A stretch of DNA of 47,385 nucleotides, from IMG/VR virus record IMGVR_UViG_3300005600_000009, positions 1 through 47,385 of that record; one strand, 5' to 3'. Origin of the DNA: a virus. A program made the translations under genes and the position numbers. The notes beneath the pieces were generated by a model. The model saw only the letters and a list, made by a program, of their open reading frames with translations. It was not told the origin of the DNA and did not search any database. Within the stretch, counting starts at the first letter, position 1. Each line of letters begins with the position of its first letter. This document shows, piece by piece, positions 5,091 to 23,248 of the stretch.

Positions 5091-5369
5091 TTACATTAAT
5101 GCGGAGTAAAGCCACATCAGGCCAATTATCACTGTTATCCGTATGTATCCCTCAATAACAGCATCTGTGAATTTCTTACCCTTAGCCTCTGGTGAGCCAT
5201 GATAGGTAAGTAGAGACATTAGACCTGAAATGCCAAGCGCGTGAGCATAACCAATTTCAGGAAGTCCAAACGGAACAACAAACCAAGACCAGCCAAGAGT
5301 TACAGCAACAGCCGAATAAAAAGCCATCGCCACTAAAGCAGTGAATCCACCAACAATTTTGAGCAACAT
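5091..5369 (-). CDS. Small membrane protein, accessory (moron-like)
   Basis: A 92-residue protein with three hydrophobic stretches: about residues 5-25, 27-56 (GWSWFVVPFGLPEIG onward) and 74-91. It is probably an integral inner-membrane protein. It has its own ribosome site (AGGAG, nine bases before the ATG) and is isolated by terminators on both sides, between the two tail-tube genes. This is how independently expressed accessory genes are carried in tail operons. No family is recognised; superinfection exclusion is a common role for such proteins but is not shown here. Confidence 0.7.
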   Translation of the reverse strand: MLLKIVGGFTALVAMAFYSAVAVTLGWSWFVVPFGLPEIGYAHALGISGLMSLLTYHGSPEAKGKKFTDAVIEGYIRITVIIGLMWLYSALM

Positions 5370-5390
5370 TAACTAATTCTCCTGATTAAT

Positions 5391-5422
5391 AAAAACCCAC
5401 CCCAACCATAAGCCAGAGCGGG
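5391..5422 (-). terminator. Terminator between the two accessory genes of island A
   Basis: Minus strand CCCGCTCTGGC pairs, with several G-U pairs, with GGTTGGGGTGGG, followed by TTTTTATTAAT and then the ribosome site of the next gene. It resembles the terminator at 5655-5689 in sequence and in the TTAAT that follows it, as if the unit had been duplicated. Confidence 0.65.
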
Positions 5423-5428
5423 CAAAAG

Positions 5429-5635
5429 TCATTTTGAACGACGCTTTAGTCCGTATTCCCGCTCAAGAAACCTTGAAAACGGACCGCCATTAGATATGTC
5501 ATGTCGCAGAAGTTTCATTAAGTGATCGTCCTGCTCATAGCTTCCCCTGACTATTTCGTCAAACTCAATAGCTCTCTTGACGCCCTCTTTAGCTAGGTCA
5601 TCTACGCTCTTGCTATTCTTTTTAAATGGCCACAT
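5429..5635 (-). CDS. Small charged accessory protein, unknown
   Basis: A 68-residue protein (MWPFKKNSKSVDDLAKEG...). The start was chosen because GGAG lies seven bases upstream; the longer frame would run back through a terminator into the preceding tube gene. It is mostly helical and charged, ending in KRRSK, with no membrane segment. It lies alone between two related terminators in island A. No family recognised. Confidence 0.6.
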   Translation of the reverse strand: MWPFKKNSKSVDDLAKEGVKRAIEFDEIVRGSYEQDDHLMKLLRHDISNGGPFSRFLEREYGLKRRSK

Positions 5636-7710: not shown

Positions 7711-8549
7711 TATGGGATCTCCGTGCTGATTTCGCCTTCGTACCACGTCAGAAAGTATTGGGCACGAGCAACGCTGCTTGATGTGTTCTCAATCTGAATC
7801 AGAAATGAGCTATTTGGAGGGACAACGCGCTCATAGCCTTCAGGTATGGACGATGCCACTCTTTGTCCTTGAGCGCCACCTCCGAAAAAGTATTCTGGTT
7901 CGCCGGACAGCGTGCCAGTGTCGCTAACCGTTACATCCTTGGTGGCTGTCACGGTCGTTGCAACAGGCGCTTTCAGGTTCCAGTTGCTGATGGTTAGCGG
8001 CGTACCACCTGATACCGTTGGATTAGCGTAAATCCTGAGCGCCAACTCTTCCCCGATATAATCAAAGATTCGCAGCTTGGTTAGTACGGTTTTTGCGCCA
8101 ATGCCGAAATAAATGTTCCGAGTGCCGCCAGACGGGATAGTTGCGCCCAATGGCCAAGCCGTCCGAATGTAATACTGCACGCCGTTCTTGATGTTCAGCT
8201 CCGTAAAAGGCTGAACCGTGATGGCCTTATTGCCATCAATAATGCGGCTGTCTGAGAACGGATTAAGCCTAATTGCTCCATCAGTATCTGCCTGCACATA
8301 CAGCGTGACAGGCCCGCCACTTGACCAAGCCCATGCGCCGGATTGCTCTCCGTCTACCTTTGCCTCACGGCCAAACGGGATGCGCGTACCAACTTCACCA
8401 TCCGGCTTTGTTGCAGAAAGCGACAACCGAACATCACCCCCAGAGCCAGCAGGCACAATCAGCAAAGGCGTTCCGACCTCAATACCGGACTTGGCGTAAA
8501 CGTCAGTCCAGTCTGGGCCTATCTGGATGGGGGTGATCGAGTCAGTCAT
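7710..8549 (-). CDS. Putative virion (capsid surface) protein
   Basis: A 279-residue beta-rich protein with low cysteine content, lying between small head proteins and the connector. It contains two similar-looking halves with strands of the type GTPLLIVPAGSGGDVRLSLS and ends WYEGEISTEIP. The composition (G, T, S, V rich) is that of decoration or head-fibre proteins. No family recognised with certainty; location supports a head-associated virion role. Confidence 0.5.
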   Translation of the reverse strand: MTDSITPIQIGPDWTDVYAKSGIEVGTPLLIVPAGSGGDVRLSLSATKPDGEVGTRIPFGREAKVDGEQSGAWAWSSGGPVTLYVQADTDGAIRLNPFSDSRIIDGNKAITVQPFTELNIKNGVQYYIRTAWPLGATIPSGGTRNIYFGIGAKTVLTKLRIFDYIGEELALRIYANPTVSGGTPLTISNWNLKAPVATTVTATKDVTVSDTGTLSGEPEYFFGGGAQGQRVASSIPEGYERVVPPNSSFLIQIENTSSSVARAQYFLTWYEGEISTEIP

Positions 8550-8551
8550 GG

Positions 8552-8833
8552 TTACAGGCCAAGTTCAGACTTGAGCTTCTTAACACCCCAGCGGCCATCT
8601 GGTTCTTCGCCAGTCTGGTCCTTGTAGAGCGCTTGCAGCTCTTCCAGTTCGTCGTTGTTGGGAGTTGCCACTTCCAGCTCTTTCGCGGGCTTTGACTCCA
8701 TAACGTTCTTGACCTCACCAAACCGCTGCCAGTGCGATGGCGGCTGGCTGTTCAGGTTCAACTTTGAACCCGGCATGATCATGCGACCATCAATCTTCAG
8801 GCCCAATCCGGTTACGTGAAATTCGCGCTTCAT
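8552..8833 (-). CDS. Small head-region protein with HeH/SAP-like C-terminus
   Basis: A 93-residue protein. Residues 1-50 look like a small beta module (GLGLKIDGRMIMPGSKL). The C-terminal helix-extension-helix pattern (LEELQALYKDQTGEEPDG then WGVKKLKSEL) resembles the HeH/SAP-like tail found on several phage head proteins next to connectors. It may be a nucleic-acid-binding or assembly module. Call is tentative. Confidence 0.5.
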   Translation of the reverse strand: MKREFHVTGLGLKIDGRMIMPGSKLNLNSQPPSHWQRFGEVKNVMESKPAKELEVATPNNDELEELQALYKDQTGEEPDGRWGVKKLKSELGL

Positions 8834-18391: not shown

Positions 18392-18697
18392 TTAACCGTA
18401 ATACTTGGCTACTTTAACCACAACATCAGGAGAAGTCGCACCACTCAGCACCACATCGAACGGCTGCTCAGCGGGGAAGCCGAAAGACTGCGGATACTCA
18501 GGCGCGGCAGTGAATGACCAATCGGTAGCGTTGTCCGGAAGATAATCATCGTTCTCATCTTTGAACTTGAACTGGATAGTTCCGCCGCCAAGATCAGCCG
18601 CGCTACCGTCGGATGCGACCATGCCAATAGCATAATTGCCGTTAAGCCCGCCCACTGACTCCGTGGCGTTTGCTGTAAATGTTGCGATTGTCTTCAT
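18392..18697 (-). CDS. Small beta-rich virion-associated protein
   Basis: A 101-residue protein (MKTIATFTANATESVGG...) with glycine-rich loops and beta pattern, ending VVKVAKYYG. It is coupled by ATGA to the preceding 388-residue fibre-like gene and lies just upstream of TerS. No family recognised; probably a fibre or capsid-surface component of the same module. Confidence 0.55.
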   Translation of the reverse strand: MKTIATFTANATESVGGLNGNYAIGMVASDGSAADLGGGTIQFKFKDENDDYLPDNATDWSFTAAPEYPQSFGFPAEQPFDVVLSGATSPDVVVKVAKYYG

Positions 18698-19860
18698 ATC
18701 CGCTTCCTCGTGGAGCTGTGCATAATTCGCTTGTGTGATTTTAGCATACGCCTTGGGTTAAATCCTTGTATGGCCACAATCACAAGCAGGCCCTGAACCT
18801 GAGTGAGCGGAGAGCCATCCCCATCTTCGGCGTCCATTGTGATGGCGTACGAATCGGCTGCCAGCTCAGGCAACTGGATAGACCATGCCCCGTTTACAGG
18901 TGTTGGCGTGTACTCAACAGCGTTAACCGTGACCACTACGTTCTGCGCATCCCCTGCCCAACCAGTGATAACCGGCGTTGTGTCGCCCGTCTGTCGGCTA
19001 TTCACCCTGATGTTGTAATCCGGAGCCGCCAGCGTAGTCAGCGTAGTGCTAGCAATCGGCCCACGGCCATCATCGTTTACGGCGCTCGTTTCGATTAAGT
19101 GTGCAGTGGCAGCGGGAAGGCTGGTAAGACTAATCGGGCTGGTAACTGACTGCCACGATCCGCCATCTACGCGATACTCAAACCCTGTAGCGTCACCGCC
19201 CGAATGCGTGAACGGCAGGCTAATAGAGTTATAGGTGATTGTCTCGCTACCATAAACAGGCGCGTTAACTGGTGGTTGCAAAGCATCCGTCGTAAAGCTA
19301 AAGCTCTCAGCCGCACCATTGCCAATCGAATTAACCGCCCTAACCTGCCCACTGTAAGCCGTATGAGGATCAAGGGTGGTGATGCTAATGGTTGTCGTGA
19401 ACGTCGTCCACGCGCCGCCGTTAAAGCTGTATTCGTAGCTATCCGCGTCATCCAGGCTGTAAGTCGGAGACAGGCTGGCAGAGCTCTTGTCCTTGGTGAT
19501 GGTGCCGATTGTCCATGCGCCTTGAGGAACAACCGTCACAGGAACTTCTACGGTGTACGCCTCCCAATCACCATATACCTGATCGCCGTCATCGAACCAG
19601 CGGCCCTCAAAACTGCCCTCAGTGTCAGCAGTAATCAGGCCGGAGCTGTCTACGCTCAGATTCCCGAGGCTATTAACGTCGTCCCACTCAAAGATGTCCC
19701 CCGCAACAACGGGGTGTGTTGTTTGATACGCAACACTTGCCGGATCATCCGTAATCGGGTCAACCATCGTGACGCTTGGGTATACCGTCCCAGCATACGC
19801 GCCGAGGTACGATACTTGTACTGTGCGGCTCGATAGGCTGGAGACATTAACCGTTGTCAT
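18694..19860 (-). CDS. Fibre-like protein with FnIII/Ig-type domains
   Basis: A 388-residue protein built from at least three beta-sandwich units. About 5-110 is an Ig-like unit (VSLS, TVYPSVTMVDP). Two FnIII-like units follow at about 115-195 and 200-280 (YEYSFNGGAWTTFTTTIS and FEYRVDGGSWQSVTSPIS align). A final Ig-like unit spans about 285-365 (GAWSIQLPELAADSYAITMD). The last 20 residues are abruptly basic (NPRRMLKSHKRIMHSS...). It could decorate the virion or bind host surface sugars. It lies upstream of TerS, coupled to its neighbours by ATGA overlaps, an unusual place for fibre genes. Confidence 0.65.
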   Translation of the reverse strand: MTTVNVSSLSSRTVQVSYLGAYAGTVYPSVTMVDPITDDPASVAYQTTHPVVAGDIFEWDDVNSLGNLSVDSSGLITADTEGSFEGRWFDDGDQVYGDWEAYTVEVPVTVVPQGAWTIGTITKDKSSASLSPTYSLDDADSYEYSFNGGAWTTFTTTISITTLDPHTAYSGQVRAVNSIGNGAAESFSFTTDALQPPVNAPVYGSETITYNSISLPFTHSGGDATGFEYRVDGGSWQSVTSPISLTSLPAATAHLIETSAVNDDGRGPIASTTLTTLAAPDYNIRVNSRQTGDTTPVITGWAGDAQNVVVTVNAVEYTPTPVNGAWSIQLPELAADSYAITMDAEDGDGSPLTQVQGLLVIVAIQGFNPRRMLKSHKRIMHSSTRKRI

Positions 19861-21002
19861 GCGTTGTCCTCAAGGTTCTGAGTGAACACAAAGCCATAGT
19901 TGTTCGAAGCGCTGTAGCCCTCGACTCTCACCGCGTCACCGACTGACCCACTTGAGGCGTTAATGGCTGAGATCACCCCGCTCGCGTCACTTGCGATAGA
20001 CGAGCCTGAGTAGACCTCTGTTCCGCCTGAAACCAAATTGATGTTGATTGACCAGTCGGACGCCTGAACCGCTGTGCCGTCTTTCTGAACGGTGATTGCG
20101 CTAATTCCTGGCACCTGACTCGCTGCCGTGGTCGCCTCTACTAGTGTCGGGCTGGCTTGTACGTTGGGCGTGCCCTCGTCGTCTTCGGCCAGAATGTAGT
20201 AATCGTAAGGCGTGTTAGCGGAGCCGGTGCTAAAGACAAGTGTAGCACTATTGCTTGCGGCTCCTGATTTAGCTTCAGGAGCCGCCGAACCCGTCGAGTC
20301 TTGGCCGGCCTTAACCTGCGCAGCACTCGGGGCGCTTGCGCCGTTAGCGAGTCGTACGCCATAGATTGTACCTGCTTCGTTCAGTGTGGCTGCAATGCTA
20401 TGCCCTGAATCCGTGGTGTTCGTTACGGCAGGCGCGCTGGTGAAGGTTGGTGCCGTGGTGTCGGCGGCTGGAGTTACCTCCTCAATATACCACGACTTAA
20501 CATACACTGACCCGCCAGATATTTCTCTTCCCTGTAGATCAATACTGGTAACGCCAGAAACTTGAAACTCCCTTGGAGTCTGACTGGCATCATTTGTCTG
20601 TATAAATTGCTGCTCGGTGCCGCCATTAACTCGAAGAGAAATTGTACGCCCACTATTTGGGTTTGGAGCCAGCACAACAACCTTATACGTTTTCGCAGAG
20701 TCTAGGCCGCCAACTGTGCCGCCTGACTGCCAAGTTCCGCCAGAAACGCGCCAGCAATCATCGCTCAGCTCGTCGTCCCACGTTGCGACAGTCCATGATG
20801 GCGGTGAGTTGCCAAACAAATCGTTGAGCATGCTCATTGAAGATGGGGTCGTGAGCGTAAGTGAGCTGGCCTCATCGTTCGGGCCAACTACAGCGGCGTC
20901 AGTCAACCCCTCGTAGACTTGGTTAAAGGTCTTGGTCGGGCTGGAAAAGGTGTCTTCGTCAAAAGATGACGGCGGTAGGTTATAGTGAAAATAATAAATC
21001 AT
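19857..21002 (-). CDS. Fibre-like protein with carbohydrate-binding-type domains
   Basis: A 381-residue beta-rich protein. Around residues 75-175 is a unit with SGGTWQSGGTVGGLDSAKTY and GRTISLRVNGGTEQ, reminiscent of carbohydrate-binding or discoidin-type sandwiches. A bacterial Ig-like region follows (DTTAPTFTSAPAVTNTTDSG, residues about 185-290), and a C-terminal unit ends FVFTQNLEDNA. No transmembrane or signal segment. Coupled on both sides by ATGA overlaps, so the three fibre-like proteins are made together. Confidence 0.6.
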   Translation of the reverse strand: MIYYFHYNLPPSSFDEDTFSSPTKTFNQVYEGLTDAAVVGPNDEASSLTLTTPSSMSMLNDLFGNSPPSWTVATWDDELSDDCWRVSGGTWQSGGTVGGLDSAKTYKVVVLAPNPNSGRTISLRVNGGTEQQFIQTNDASQTPREFQVSGVTSIDLQGREISGGSVYVKSWYIEEVTPAADTTAPTFTSAPAVTNTTDSGHSIAATLNEAGTIYGVRLANGASAPSAAQVKAGQDSTGSAAPEAKSGAASNSATLVFSTGSANTPYDYYILAEDDEGTPNVQASPTLVEATTAASQVPGISAITVQKDGTAVQASDWSININLVSGGTEVYSGSSIASDASGVISAINASSGSVGDAVRVEGYSASNNYGFVFTQNLEDNA

Positions 21003-22099
21003 ACCAAGCCCTCTGGTAATCCATTAAGAACCGCAACTCGGCGGATCTCGTAATATTCTTCACGTGCGTCCTGATCTGTCCACTGGCCGCCAGTCCATGA
21101 GTCATTGCCGCCAAGGGCAAACGCATTCCACTTCGGCATCGGGTCTGAGGTGGTTTTGACCCATCGAACCGTCTCGCTATCAACAATCAACTGATCGTCC
21201 AAATACTGCCGGAAAATTCCGTCTGACGCATTGGGCGCGGAATTCATCTTCACGTAGAAGGCTATCTTGGTAAACGTGCCAGCGGGGCCGAAAACCTGCT
21301 CGTGGGTGACGACTCCTTCGGTCGGCAAGAAACCACCGTTCAGCTTGTCAGGAATCTGAGGACTCCCACCTGCTGCAAGATTGCCCTGCATATCGTTAGT
21401 CCAGTTCATAGAAATATCGCCAAGGCTTCCTTGCGATATGTCCCTGCCAACGTCGCCAATGTCGGAATTACTCATGCTGTAGTTATCGCCATGAGGGCCG
21501 CCCCGGAAAAAAATCCCGTTTCGCAAGCCGTAGTTTCCTGAGACTGCCCAGTCCCAAAGGAACAGTGGCCCTTGCTCGCCACCGCTAAACGCTTGCCAAA
21601 AATTGCTAGTCTCACCTGTTGAGCTAAAGATGCGGAATACCTTGGAAGCCGCTGTCGCGCCATCGCCACTTGTCCAGCCGTCCATAAAAGCAATTTCAAA
21701 CTCGACGTACATTTCATCCGAACCAACTGAAAACAACTTACCAATGTTGGCGTTAGACCCGAAAGTATTTGTCGGATGCCACTCACGCCAAACGCGCAAC
21801 GCCTTACCTGAGCCGTTTAGGATGGAGGGGGCAATCTCTAGGTTCGGGTTCGCGCTGTAGCTGTCACCTGAATTGTAAAGAGCATCCCAGCCAGTCGGAA
21901 GTGAGTCGCCATCCCAGCTGAACAGCGTAGAATCACTAGGCTCTGGCGCTACCCAATCGGCTTGAGCGTCGAACGTGTCTTCAAAAAGCCAATCGCCGGA
22001 CGGCTGTGCTGGCGCATCATAATCCGACTCAAACCCGCCGCCCTGCTTTGCTCTAAACGGTATCTTTCGCCCTGGATTTTGTTGGTTGATTGCTGGCAT
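20999..22099 (-). CDS. Fibre-like protein with jelly-roll (polysaccharide lyase-like) domain
   Basis: A 366-residue protein and the first gene after the noncoding block. The N-terminus (MPAINQQNPGRKIPFRAKQG) looks like a virion-attachment peptide. From about residue 45 it has the concanavalin-like pattern of polysaccharide-lyase and glucanase folds: DEMYVEFEIAFMDGWTSGDG, WDWAVSGNYGLRNG and GTFTKIAFYVKMNSAPNASD. It might bind or cut capsule or exopolysaccharide. Catalytic residues cannot be assigned by eye. Ribosome site CGGAG precedes the ATG. Confidence 0.6.
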   Translation of the reverse strand: MPAINQQNPGRKIPFRAKQGGGFESDYDAPAQPSGDWLFEDTFDAQADWVAPEPSDSTLFSWDGDSLPTGWDALYNSGDSYSANPNLEIAPSILNGSGKALRVWREWHPTNTFGSNANIGKLFSVGSDEMYVEFEIAFMDGWTSGDGATAASKVFRIFSSTGETSNFWQAFSGGEQGPLFLWDWAVSGNYGLRNGIFFRGGPHGDNYSMSNSDIGDVGRDISQGSLGDISMNWTNDMQGNLAAGGSPQIPDKLNGGFLPTEGVVTHEQVFGPAGTFTKIAFYVKMNSAPNASDGIFRQYLDDQLIVDSETVRWVKTTSDPMPKWNAFALGGNDSWTGGQWTDQDAREEYYEIRRVAVLNGLPEGLV

Positions 22100-22137: not shown

Positions 22138-22162
22138 AAAAAAAGCCGCTGTAATAGCGGCT
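22138..22162 (-). terminator. Intrinsic terminator ahead of the late operon
   Basis: Minus strand AGCCGCT, loop ATTAC, AGCGGCT and seven T. It lies about 40 bases before the first late gene and ends the structured noncoding segment. Late transcription started upstream must read through it. Confidence 0.88.
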
Positions 22163-22511
22163 GAATCTATCGTGGCTCTGTGGCCTTCTAACTTTCCGTG
22201 TCGCTGGTACTTGCGCCTCACAGCCGGCTAGTGTTGGGAGTGTGGTGGCCTGCTCGCTCGTGCAGACTTCCAGTTTTATTGATTCGGCTGAAACCGACGA
22301 CAAGTGAGGGTGAAACACCCGCTATTCGCTACTCGCAGACTTGTCCGCTGCTCACCACACTGAATAGGGCTCTGGCATTCAGCTACAACCGGCATAACTA
22401 CCCTTCGCGTAAAAACCAAAGCCCTAATCAGTGCCCGCTAGTATCGCCTAACGGGGCGCGTGTAACGTGACGCCTCTCGGCGTGATACAAGTTCGCAACT
22501 TGTCATTGCCC
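22138..22511 (-). ncRNA. Predicted large structured noncoding RNA (late-operon leader candidate)
   Basis: About 375 nt without a convincing gene, bounded by a promoter and a terminator on the minus strand. Predicted helices (plus coordinates) are: hairpin 22487-22503 (7 bp, 3-nt loop); hairpin 22470-22483 (5 bp, GAGA loop); long helix 22416-22431 with 22360-22375 (16 bp, one U-U mismatch and one U-G); helix 22353-22361 with 22239-22247 (9 bp, perfect); nested inside it 22339-22345 with 22299-22305 (7 bp) and hairpin 22308-22320 (5 bp, 3-nt loop); then the terminator stem. A 5' GGGC may pair with GCCC near 22454. It resembles no RNA class I can name. By place it parallels the lambda pR' leader (6S RNA), and may act in antitermination, packaging or host regulation; that is inference. 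Confidence 0.7.
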
Positions 22512-22515
22512 GTTA

Positions 22516-22545
22516 ACTATAGCTCAACGTTCGCACTATTTTCAA
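22516..22545 (-). promoter_or_regulatory. Sigma70-like promoter for the noncoding RNA / late operon
   Basis: Minus strand TTGAAA (22540-22545), 18-base spacer, TATAGT (22516-22521); each hexamer has five of six consensus bases. Predicted start is a G near 22509-22511. The -35 overlaps the stop codon of the preceding gene. Confidence 0.7.
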
Positions 22546-22808
22546 TCCTCCCAAAAATCCTGAACTTGATAGCTGTCAGGAACATCAAAATGATCAGAAT
22601 AGTCATCATAAAAAATCACATTACACCCCTTGTGCTCCTGAAGAAAGGACAAAAGCATCGCCTCTCTAACCAGAACTTCCTTTCTCTTTAAGTAATTACC
22701 AAGCTCAATTGCGTCAGAAAGGTTATCAATGTCTCGAAAAAATTGAATTTTGTCTAAATTCCTCGCAACCTCGCAATCTTTGCAAGCAACACCAGATATT
22801 ATCCCCAT
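22542..22808 (-). CDS. Last leftward early gene, unknown, CxxC motif
   Basis: An 88-residue protein with an early CKDC motif (residues about 9-12) and a helical middle (LSDAIELGNYLKRKEVLVRE), ending acidic (DFWED). Start at the ATG preceded by GAGG; a TTG six bases earlier is rejected. It is the gene immediately before the late promoter, the place where lambdoid phages carry the antiterminator Q. It has no visible similarity to Q families, so only the position is suggestive. Confidence 0.6.
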   Translation of the reverse strand: MGIISGVACKDCEVARNLDKIQFFRDIDNLSDAIELGNYLKRKEVLVREAMLLSFLQEHKGCNVIFYDDYSDHFDVPDSYQVQDFWED

Positions 22809-22810
22809 AA

Positions 22811-23248
22811 TCAAAACCTCACAGTCCCAATAACCCCAACCATCTGATGGCTGAATATAAACTTCGGTGATACATGCGCATCATAGCCTATGTACGGGAT
22901 AGGCGTCGGACAGTAACGCGGGCCGTTGCCATTGTCGCCAAAGCACTCTCGATAGCCGTGGCTTACAGCCGCAATCACGCCAGCGTGCAACCCCTTATAG
23001 CTCCACCGGAAGTCATAGCCGATCAAGTGCGTGTCGCGGTTGTAAGAGTTCTTGAAGCGTGCCACCACGACGTTCTTGTAGTTCACGCCAACAAGGTTAT
23101 GCACCTCGTTATACTCACCCTCGACAAAGTGCTTGCTCCAGGCTCCTAGGTAGAGTTCGTCGGATTTGGCGTTAGCTGAGTAGACCGCCAACACAAGAAC
23201 GATTACTGACAACACCAAGCACGGAAAGTCTTGCTTTGTTATTTTCAT
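22811..23248 (-). CDS. Exported protein, probably small outer-membrane beta-barrel
   Basis: A 145-residue protein with an N-terminal signal sequence (basic start, hydrophobic LVLSVIVLVLAVYS, cleavage near SANA). The mature part has alternating strands and aromatic belts: ELYLGAWSKHFVEGEYNEVH, FKNSYNRDTHLIGYDFRW and YIGYDAHVSPKFIFSH. This suggests an 8-stranded barrel like PagP/PagL-type proteins. It has two cysteines in ECFGDNGNGPRYC, likely a disulphide. It may alter the cell surface or block superinfection; the role is inferred, the export signal is visible. Confidence 0.65.
   Translation of the reverse strand: MKITKQDFPCLVLSVIVLVLAVYSANAKSDELYLGAWSKHFVEGEYNEVHNLVGVNYKNVVVARFKNSYNRDTHLIGYDFRWSYKGLHAGVIAAVSHGYRECFGDNGNGPRYCPTPIPYIGYDAHVSPKFIFSHQMVGVIGTVRF

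Follow-up and report, generated by a model that had tools for sequence, protein, structure and literature searches.

The closest described counterpart of the locus reported here is the pR′-6S-tR′ region of lambda and phage 21, with its antiterminator Q. The Q protein of phage 21 binds TGAGCA repeats, in which the key C:G pairs lie at −21 and −13 (PMC6606751), and pR′ regions diverge strongly among phages (PMC6266700). AlpA is an antiterminator as well; its sequence does not resemble that of Q, and it presumably binds in the interval from −35 to −10 (PMC7969949). An RNA, too, can prevent termination, as described for the put element of HK022, which acts in cis without phage proteins (PMC9378689). 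Finally, large noncoding RNAs have been described, namely GOLLD, ROOL and other large ornate RNAs, among the reported sources of which are phages (PMC12286853).

We analysed one virus record of 47,385 bases (IMGVR_UViG_3300005600_000009), referred to as the window over its whole length, and within it the stretch 22138–22545. A first-pass annotation, made from the letters alone, had proposed a new class of phage RNA for this stretch or, alternatively, a leader of the late operon comparable to lambda pR′-6S-tR′. The latter is the best supported reading: 22138–22545 probably, though far from certainly, represents a late promoter, leader and terminator, and would thereby be a functional analogue of pR′-6S-tR′ in a lambda-like phage. 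This assignment rests on the position of the stretch, on its promoter and terminator frame, on the junctions of 18 out of 18 relatives and on a motif resembling a Q-binding site.

Gene order and elements of the junction

The minus strand of the record displays a lambdoid gene order. Genes for an O-like replication protein, a DnaB-like helicase, NinB/Orf and NinG lie upstream of the stretch, from which NinG is separated by small genes, a PagP-like gene and a 90-aa ORF. Downstream on this strand come three genes either without family or with an fn3 domain, then TerS (phrog_606), TerL, portal, head and tail genes. With early genes on one side and late genes on the other, the stretch therefore lies at the early/late junction, on the late strand, with the nin region before it and the late operon behind it. 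The gene order also suggests that the record is circularly permuted, because the tail genes run on from its left end to its right end.

Six-frame translation of 22138–22545 yielded no convincing protein frame, and the ORFs of 68–90 aa in this stretch had no Pfam match. The promoter-like site at its upstream end shows 0 mismatches and is among the best three in 11 kb, and the terminator at its downstream end takes rank 7 among the terminator-like sites of the whole record in our own ranking (table 1). The first-pass description of a gene-free stretch separating the replication genes from the late operon, flanked on the minus strand by TTGAAA-18-TATAGT and by a 7-bp stem with T7, is thus borne out by gene order and by the elements themselves.

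Table 1. Features in and around the early/late junction of the window (47,385 bases, IMGVR_UViG_3300005600_000009).
Feature	Position	Strand	Remarks
PagP-like gene	22811–23248	−	phrog_3600, lipid A acylation
90-aa ORF	22542–22814	−	directly upstream of the stretch, where relatives have Q; unknown, not Q-like
Promoter-like site TTGAAA-18-TATAGT	22516–22545	−	−35 at 22545–22540, −10 at 22521–22516; expected start near 22509
Q-binding-site-like motif GAAC-N2-TGAGC	22522–22532	−	in the spacer; TGAGC flush with −10, C at −13
Putative leader RNA	22138–22509	−	about 370 nt, untranslated; fold z −4.29, without protein frame
Three small 5′ hairpins	22434–22503	−	22503–22487, 22483–22470, 22455–22434
Main hairpin	22357–22434	−	CACUGA.UUAGGGCUUUGGU ... 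GCCAGAGCCCUA.UUCAGUG; 78 nt, imperfect
Small hairpin GGGUG-UUU-CACCC	22308–22320	−	pair probability 0.97; unremarkable by chance
Intrinsic terminator AGCCGCT-ATTAC-AGCGGCT-T7	22162–22138	−	39 bases ahead of first late gene
First gene past terminator	20999–22099	−	opens late operon

The genes on both sides of the stretch deserve a brief description. The PagP-like gene is approximately 35% identical to genes in two of the related loci (L007 and L087) and approximately 30–37% identical to genes in Vibrio phages; together with the 90-aa ORF, it looks like cargo. Although it occupies the place of Q, the 90-aa ORF gives no Q-like fold; its AlphaFold model is of low confidence (pLDDT 65) and has no viral fold match. 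On the other side, the three genes between leader and TerS (18694–22099, minus strand), one with an fn3 domain and the others without family, have a relative among the TerL kin only in a 100% identical contig (L002), and may be virion decoration or tail-related cargo.

The −35 element of the promoter-like site overlaps the stop codon of the 90-aa ORF, and the late promoters of two relatives, L086 and L101, likewise overlap or abut the end of Q. These two promoters, in phages with a PF06530-type (21-type) Q, carry TGAAC-N3-TGAGC flush with their −10, to be compared with the GAAC-N2-TGAGC of the window, in which there is one base less between the halves. Taken by itself, the motif is no rarity: 1.67 Mb yielded 30 matches, against 25 expected. 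Inside a promoter and just before a terminator, it was found in the window, L086 and L101 only, among 117 sequences. Set beside these promoters and the sites of phage 21, GAAC-N2-TGAGC is a candidate Q-type site, which we grade as suggestive only, because it was spotted after the fact and its spacing is off by one base. As for a pause element of the −10 type in the initially transcribed sequence, minimal A2/T6 matches occur at about +8 and about +16, as chance predicts.

Fold of the putative leader

The 374-nt sequence gives a more stable fold on the minus strand than its shuffled controls do (z = −4.29; 0 of 100 shuffles matched it), and the segment 22460–22301 is the best of 117 segments scanned over 9.5 kb (z −8.2). 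Nearly all of this signal sits in the main hairpin, for which the minus strand gives −41.3 kcal/mol and z −7.6, with pair probabilities of 0.83–0.99 and 31 pairs, 7 of them G-U, versus −24.6 kcal/mol, z −4.3 and zero G-U pairs for the plus strand. Owing to this difference in z and in G-U pairs between the strands, the hairpin is more in keeping with an RNA of the minus strand than with a simple palindrome in the DNA. The other parts score −1.9 (5′ part, the three hairpins of which have pair probabilities of 0.53–0.95 and which is not clearly above chance), −2.4 (P3 domain) and −0.8 (3′ part), and the whole sequence between the main hairpin and the terminator scores −0.3.

The first-pass annotation had counted at least six helices and far more pairing than expected. 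Its long helix, 22416–22431 with 22360–22375, is real (pair probability 0.86–0.99), but the claim does not extend to the whole, which consists of one hairpin at z −7.6 and a weak remainder. Nor does the 9-bp perfect helix AGUGUGGUG/CACCACACU stand as a notable structure: chance alone would produce about 0.3 helices of this length in 375 nt (our own estimate, 375^2/2/4^9), and this one competes with the base of the main hairpin and is absent from the minimum-energy structure. Two further candidates were rejected. An RNA switch, in which AAUAGCGG (22326–22319) would pair with the terminator segment CCGCUAUU, is equalled by 107 of 1000 shuffles, and the likeness of GCCTAAC ... GTTAAC at 22446–22516 to an integron attC site, noted by eye, breaks down at the right-hand core, which does not fit.

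The near-chance fold outside the hairpin (z −0.3) is what would be expected if there were no distinct RNA gene here, and the stretch were an intergenic region with a terminator of early transcription, one imperfect inverted repeat and a promoter-like site present by chance; the repeat would then be a remnant or, within a longer message, a site for RNase III. Promoter-like sites are indeed common (15 found versus 10.8 expected), and so are terminators at this junction in relatives. However, approximately 370 gene-free bases in a dense phage genome, together with an exact promoter-like site whose distance and strand are right and whose spacer bears a Q-site-like motif, make this explanation quite improbable in our judgement.

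Relatives of the putative leader and of the junction

No sequence relative of the leader was retrieved. Rfam families, including GOLLD and ROOL, gave no match at gathering thresholds (the best relaxed match, at E 1.6, was terminator-like and due to chance), and neither tRNA nor tmRNA was detected in the stretch. Comparison by blastn gave no match to phages or plasmids, and only the terminator palindrome or chance matches against approximately 80 TerL-related loci and the whole records of approximately 50 of them. Four exact-pattern scans of public viral and genome collections returned either nothing or matches of 16–20 bases, which we take as chance, those in L114 and L116 falling inside protein genes; scans with the neighbouring proteins yielded no close relative of the junction. 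This lack of sequence relatives fits the strong divergence of pR′ regions mentioned above. It also leaves the proposed new phage RNA class unsupported, since there is no relative to show conservation or covariation, and a single hairpin exceeds chance. Likewise, no positive evidence emerged for a packaging RNA or for membership in the HK022 put or EAR elements.

Structured gaps before TerS in three relatives (L008, L010 and L014) were considered as homologues and set aside, the likeness being architectural at best. The gap of L014 reads as a lipoprotein-like gene and a terminator; one of those of L008 reads as coding, and the hairpin RNA and tRNA of this prophage are missing from its sister L088. 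L007, the sole TerL relative in which a PagP-like gene and TerS flank the gap, has a terminator there, with a fold not above shuffles. Across 75 relatives, the strongest hairpins were not systematically located at the junction.

The architecture of the junction, on the other hand, recurs. TerL relatives with longer records have the same lambdoid order, and 18 of them, distinct after deduplication, carry a Q recognised by comparison with three Q proteins (PF03589 or PF06530). All 18 show the same succession of Q, noncoding DNA, an intrinsic terminator 48–297 nt past the Q stop, and late genes. The 5 kb ahead of TerL contain late-strand terminators at 1.8 times the density observed downstream of this gene, and the Q leader of L046 (3259–3520) is about as well folded as that of the window (z −3.9). 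From the Q-bearing relatives, the terminator density and the L046 leader, we infer that a promoter–leader–terminator unit is the normal content of the junction in this phage group. The L046 leader might also serve as a model for structured late leaders.

The same junction also harbours RNA genes. A Sib antitoxin RNA (RF00113, type I toxin–antitoxin) lies between Q and the late genes of a Hafnia psychrotolerans prophage (L089, 6705–6851), tRNAs are found there in L033 and L102, and L008 has a structured stretch or hairpin RNA (5140–5430) right before a tRNA-Arg (CCU), missing from its sister prophage L088. Because the junction collects accessory RNA genes in relatives, the main rival of a late leader is a stand-alone small RNA, or ‘moron’ RNA, equipped with a promoter and a terminator of its own, acting in trans on host or phage RNAs and carried in a cargo cluster beside the PagP-like gene, the late operon being served by read-through from upstream or by another promoter. 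The cargo-like appearance of the flanking PagP-like gene and 90-aa ORF agrees with this, and a private promoter and terminator are typical of a small RNA gene. However, a cargo gene that spreads would usually be expected to have relatives, and none was found; just 39 bases separate the terminator from the first late gene; and the same promoter–terminator frame is present in relatives that lack an RNA of this kind. A stand-alone RNA, moreover, gives the Q-site-like motif of the promoter no role, and we accordingly regard it as unlikely, while still to be taken seriously.

Two other structured stretches were observed in relatives. In L102, a Citrobacter prophage with its tRNA at 1500–1571, a structured noncoding stretch without Rfam match (1652–2029, z −5.1) lies behind the Q terminators. 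L010 has a strong hairpin (8560–8625), with a direct repeat of GGTAGAGATG nearby, in the gap upstream of TerS (8480–8640, z −8.2).

A probable late gate and its counterparts

If the stretch is a late promoter, leader and terminator, host RNA polymerase would start near 22509, make a short structured RNA of approximately 370 nt and stop at 22138. A phage antitermination factor made early would let the polymerase past this stop, with the TGAGC/GAAC motif between −35 and −10 as its presumed loading place, and the late operon would then be made from this promoter, from 22099 to 1 and, provided that the record is circular, continuing downwards from 47346. The large leader hairpin may be where RNase III cuts, or may make the polymerase pause.

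No Q antiterminator gene is recognisable in the record, with PF06530 and PF03589 giving no match and a local profile of 21-type Q giving nothing credible (a search with PF06323 matched nowhere, and carries no weight on the absence of Q); no AlpA-like protein was recognised in the family scans of the window. The leader is thus to be viewed as an analogue, and not as an established member of the Q-dependent class, because no Q gene can be recognised. This absence counts against a late gate, as do the position of the leader ahead of three family-less or fn3 genes instead of a lysis cassette, the post hoc nature of the motif, and the nearest TerL relatives (L006, L008 and L088), which have no comparable cargo-free promoter–leader–terminator unit.

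A missing Q gene could also mean that the leader itself is the antitermination element of a late promoter, put- or EAR-like yet unrelated and larger, acting in cis without a Q protein by binding the polymerase that made it, which would then pass its own and later terminators of the late operon. The RNA begins right at the promoter and carries a strong strand-specific hairpin, and put offers a precedent for such action. Nevertheless, put RNAs measure approximately 70 nt, consist of two stem-loops and are located downstream of early promoters (PMC9378689), no similarity was detected, and an element active at all times would, at the late promoter, abolish the timing of late genes, so that this reading appears very improbable.

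The stretch most likely provides the leader and terminator of a late-gene gate that is ordinary in kind and unusual in detail. If so, a late-gene gate without a recognisable Q in an uncultured lambda-like phage points to a novel antiterminator, be it protein or RNA. In this phage group, the junction would retain its promoter–leader–terminator design through changes of Q, of leader sequence and of cargo, and would also be a place where accessory RNAs gather.

Among known systems, GOLLD and ROOL have in common with the RNA of the window that they are large and noncoding; the latter has no Rfam match, is smaller, and has most of its fold at chance level. HK022 put is likewise a structured RNA near a phage promoter and ahead of terminators, and differs in the features given above, including its activity without phage proteins. 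The AlpA-controlled alpBCDE promoter of Pseudomonas aeruginosa is similarly followed by an intrinsic terminator ahead of its operon (PMC7969949), whereas the window has no AlpA-like protein among its recognised families. From lambda and phage 21, the window departs by the lack of a recognisable Q, by one very strong hairpin in a leader of greater length than most found in relatives, and by three family-less or fn3 genes past the terminator, where lysis genes would be. As judged from its sequence, it presents the arrangement of a pR′–tR′ region, a putative sigma-70 promoter with an intrinsic terminator within a few hundred bases, before the late genes, and it resembles pR′-6S-tR′ in its place after the nin region and ahead of the late operon, in its frame of late-strand promoter, leader and terminator, in its structured leader and, more tentatively, in the Q-site-like motif between −35 and −10.
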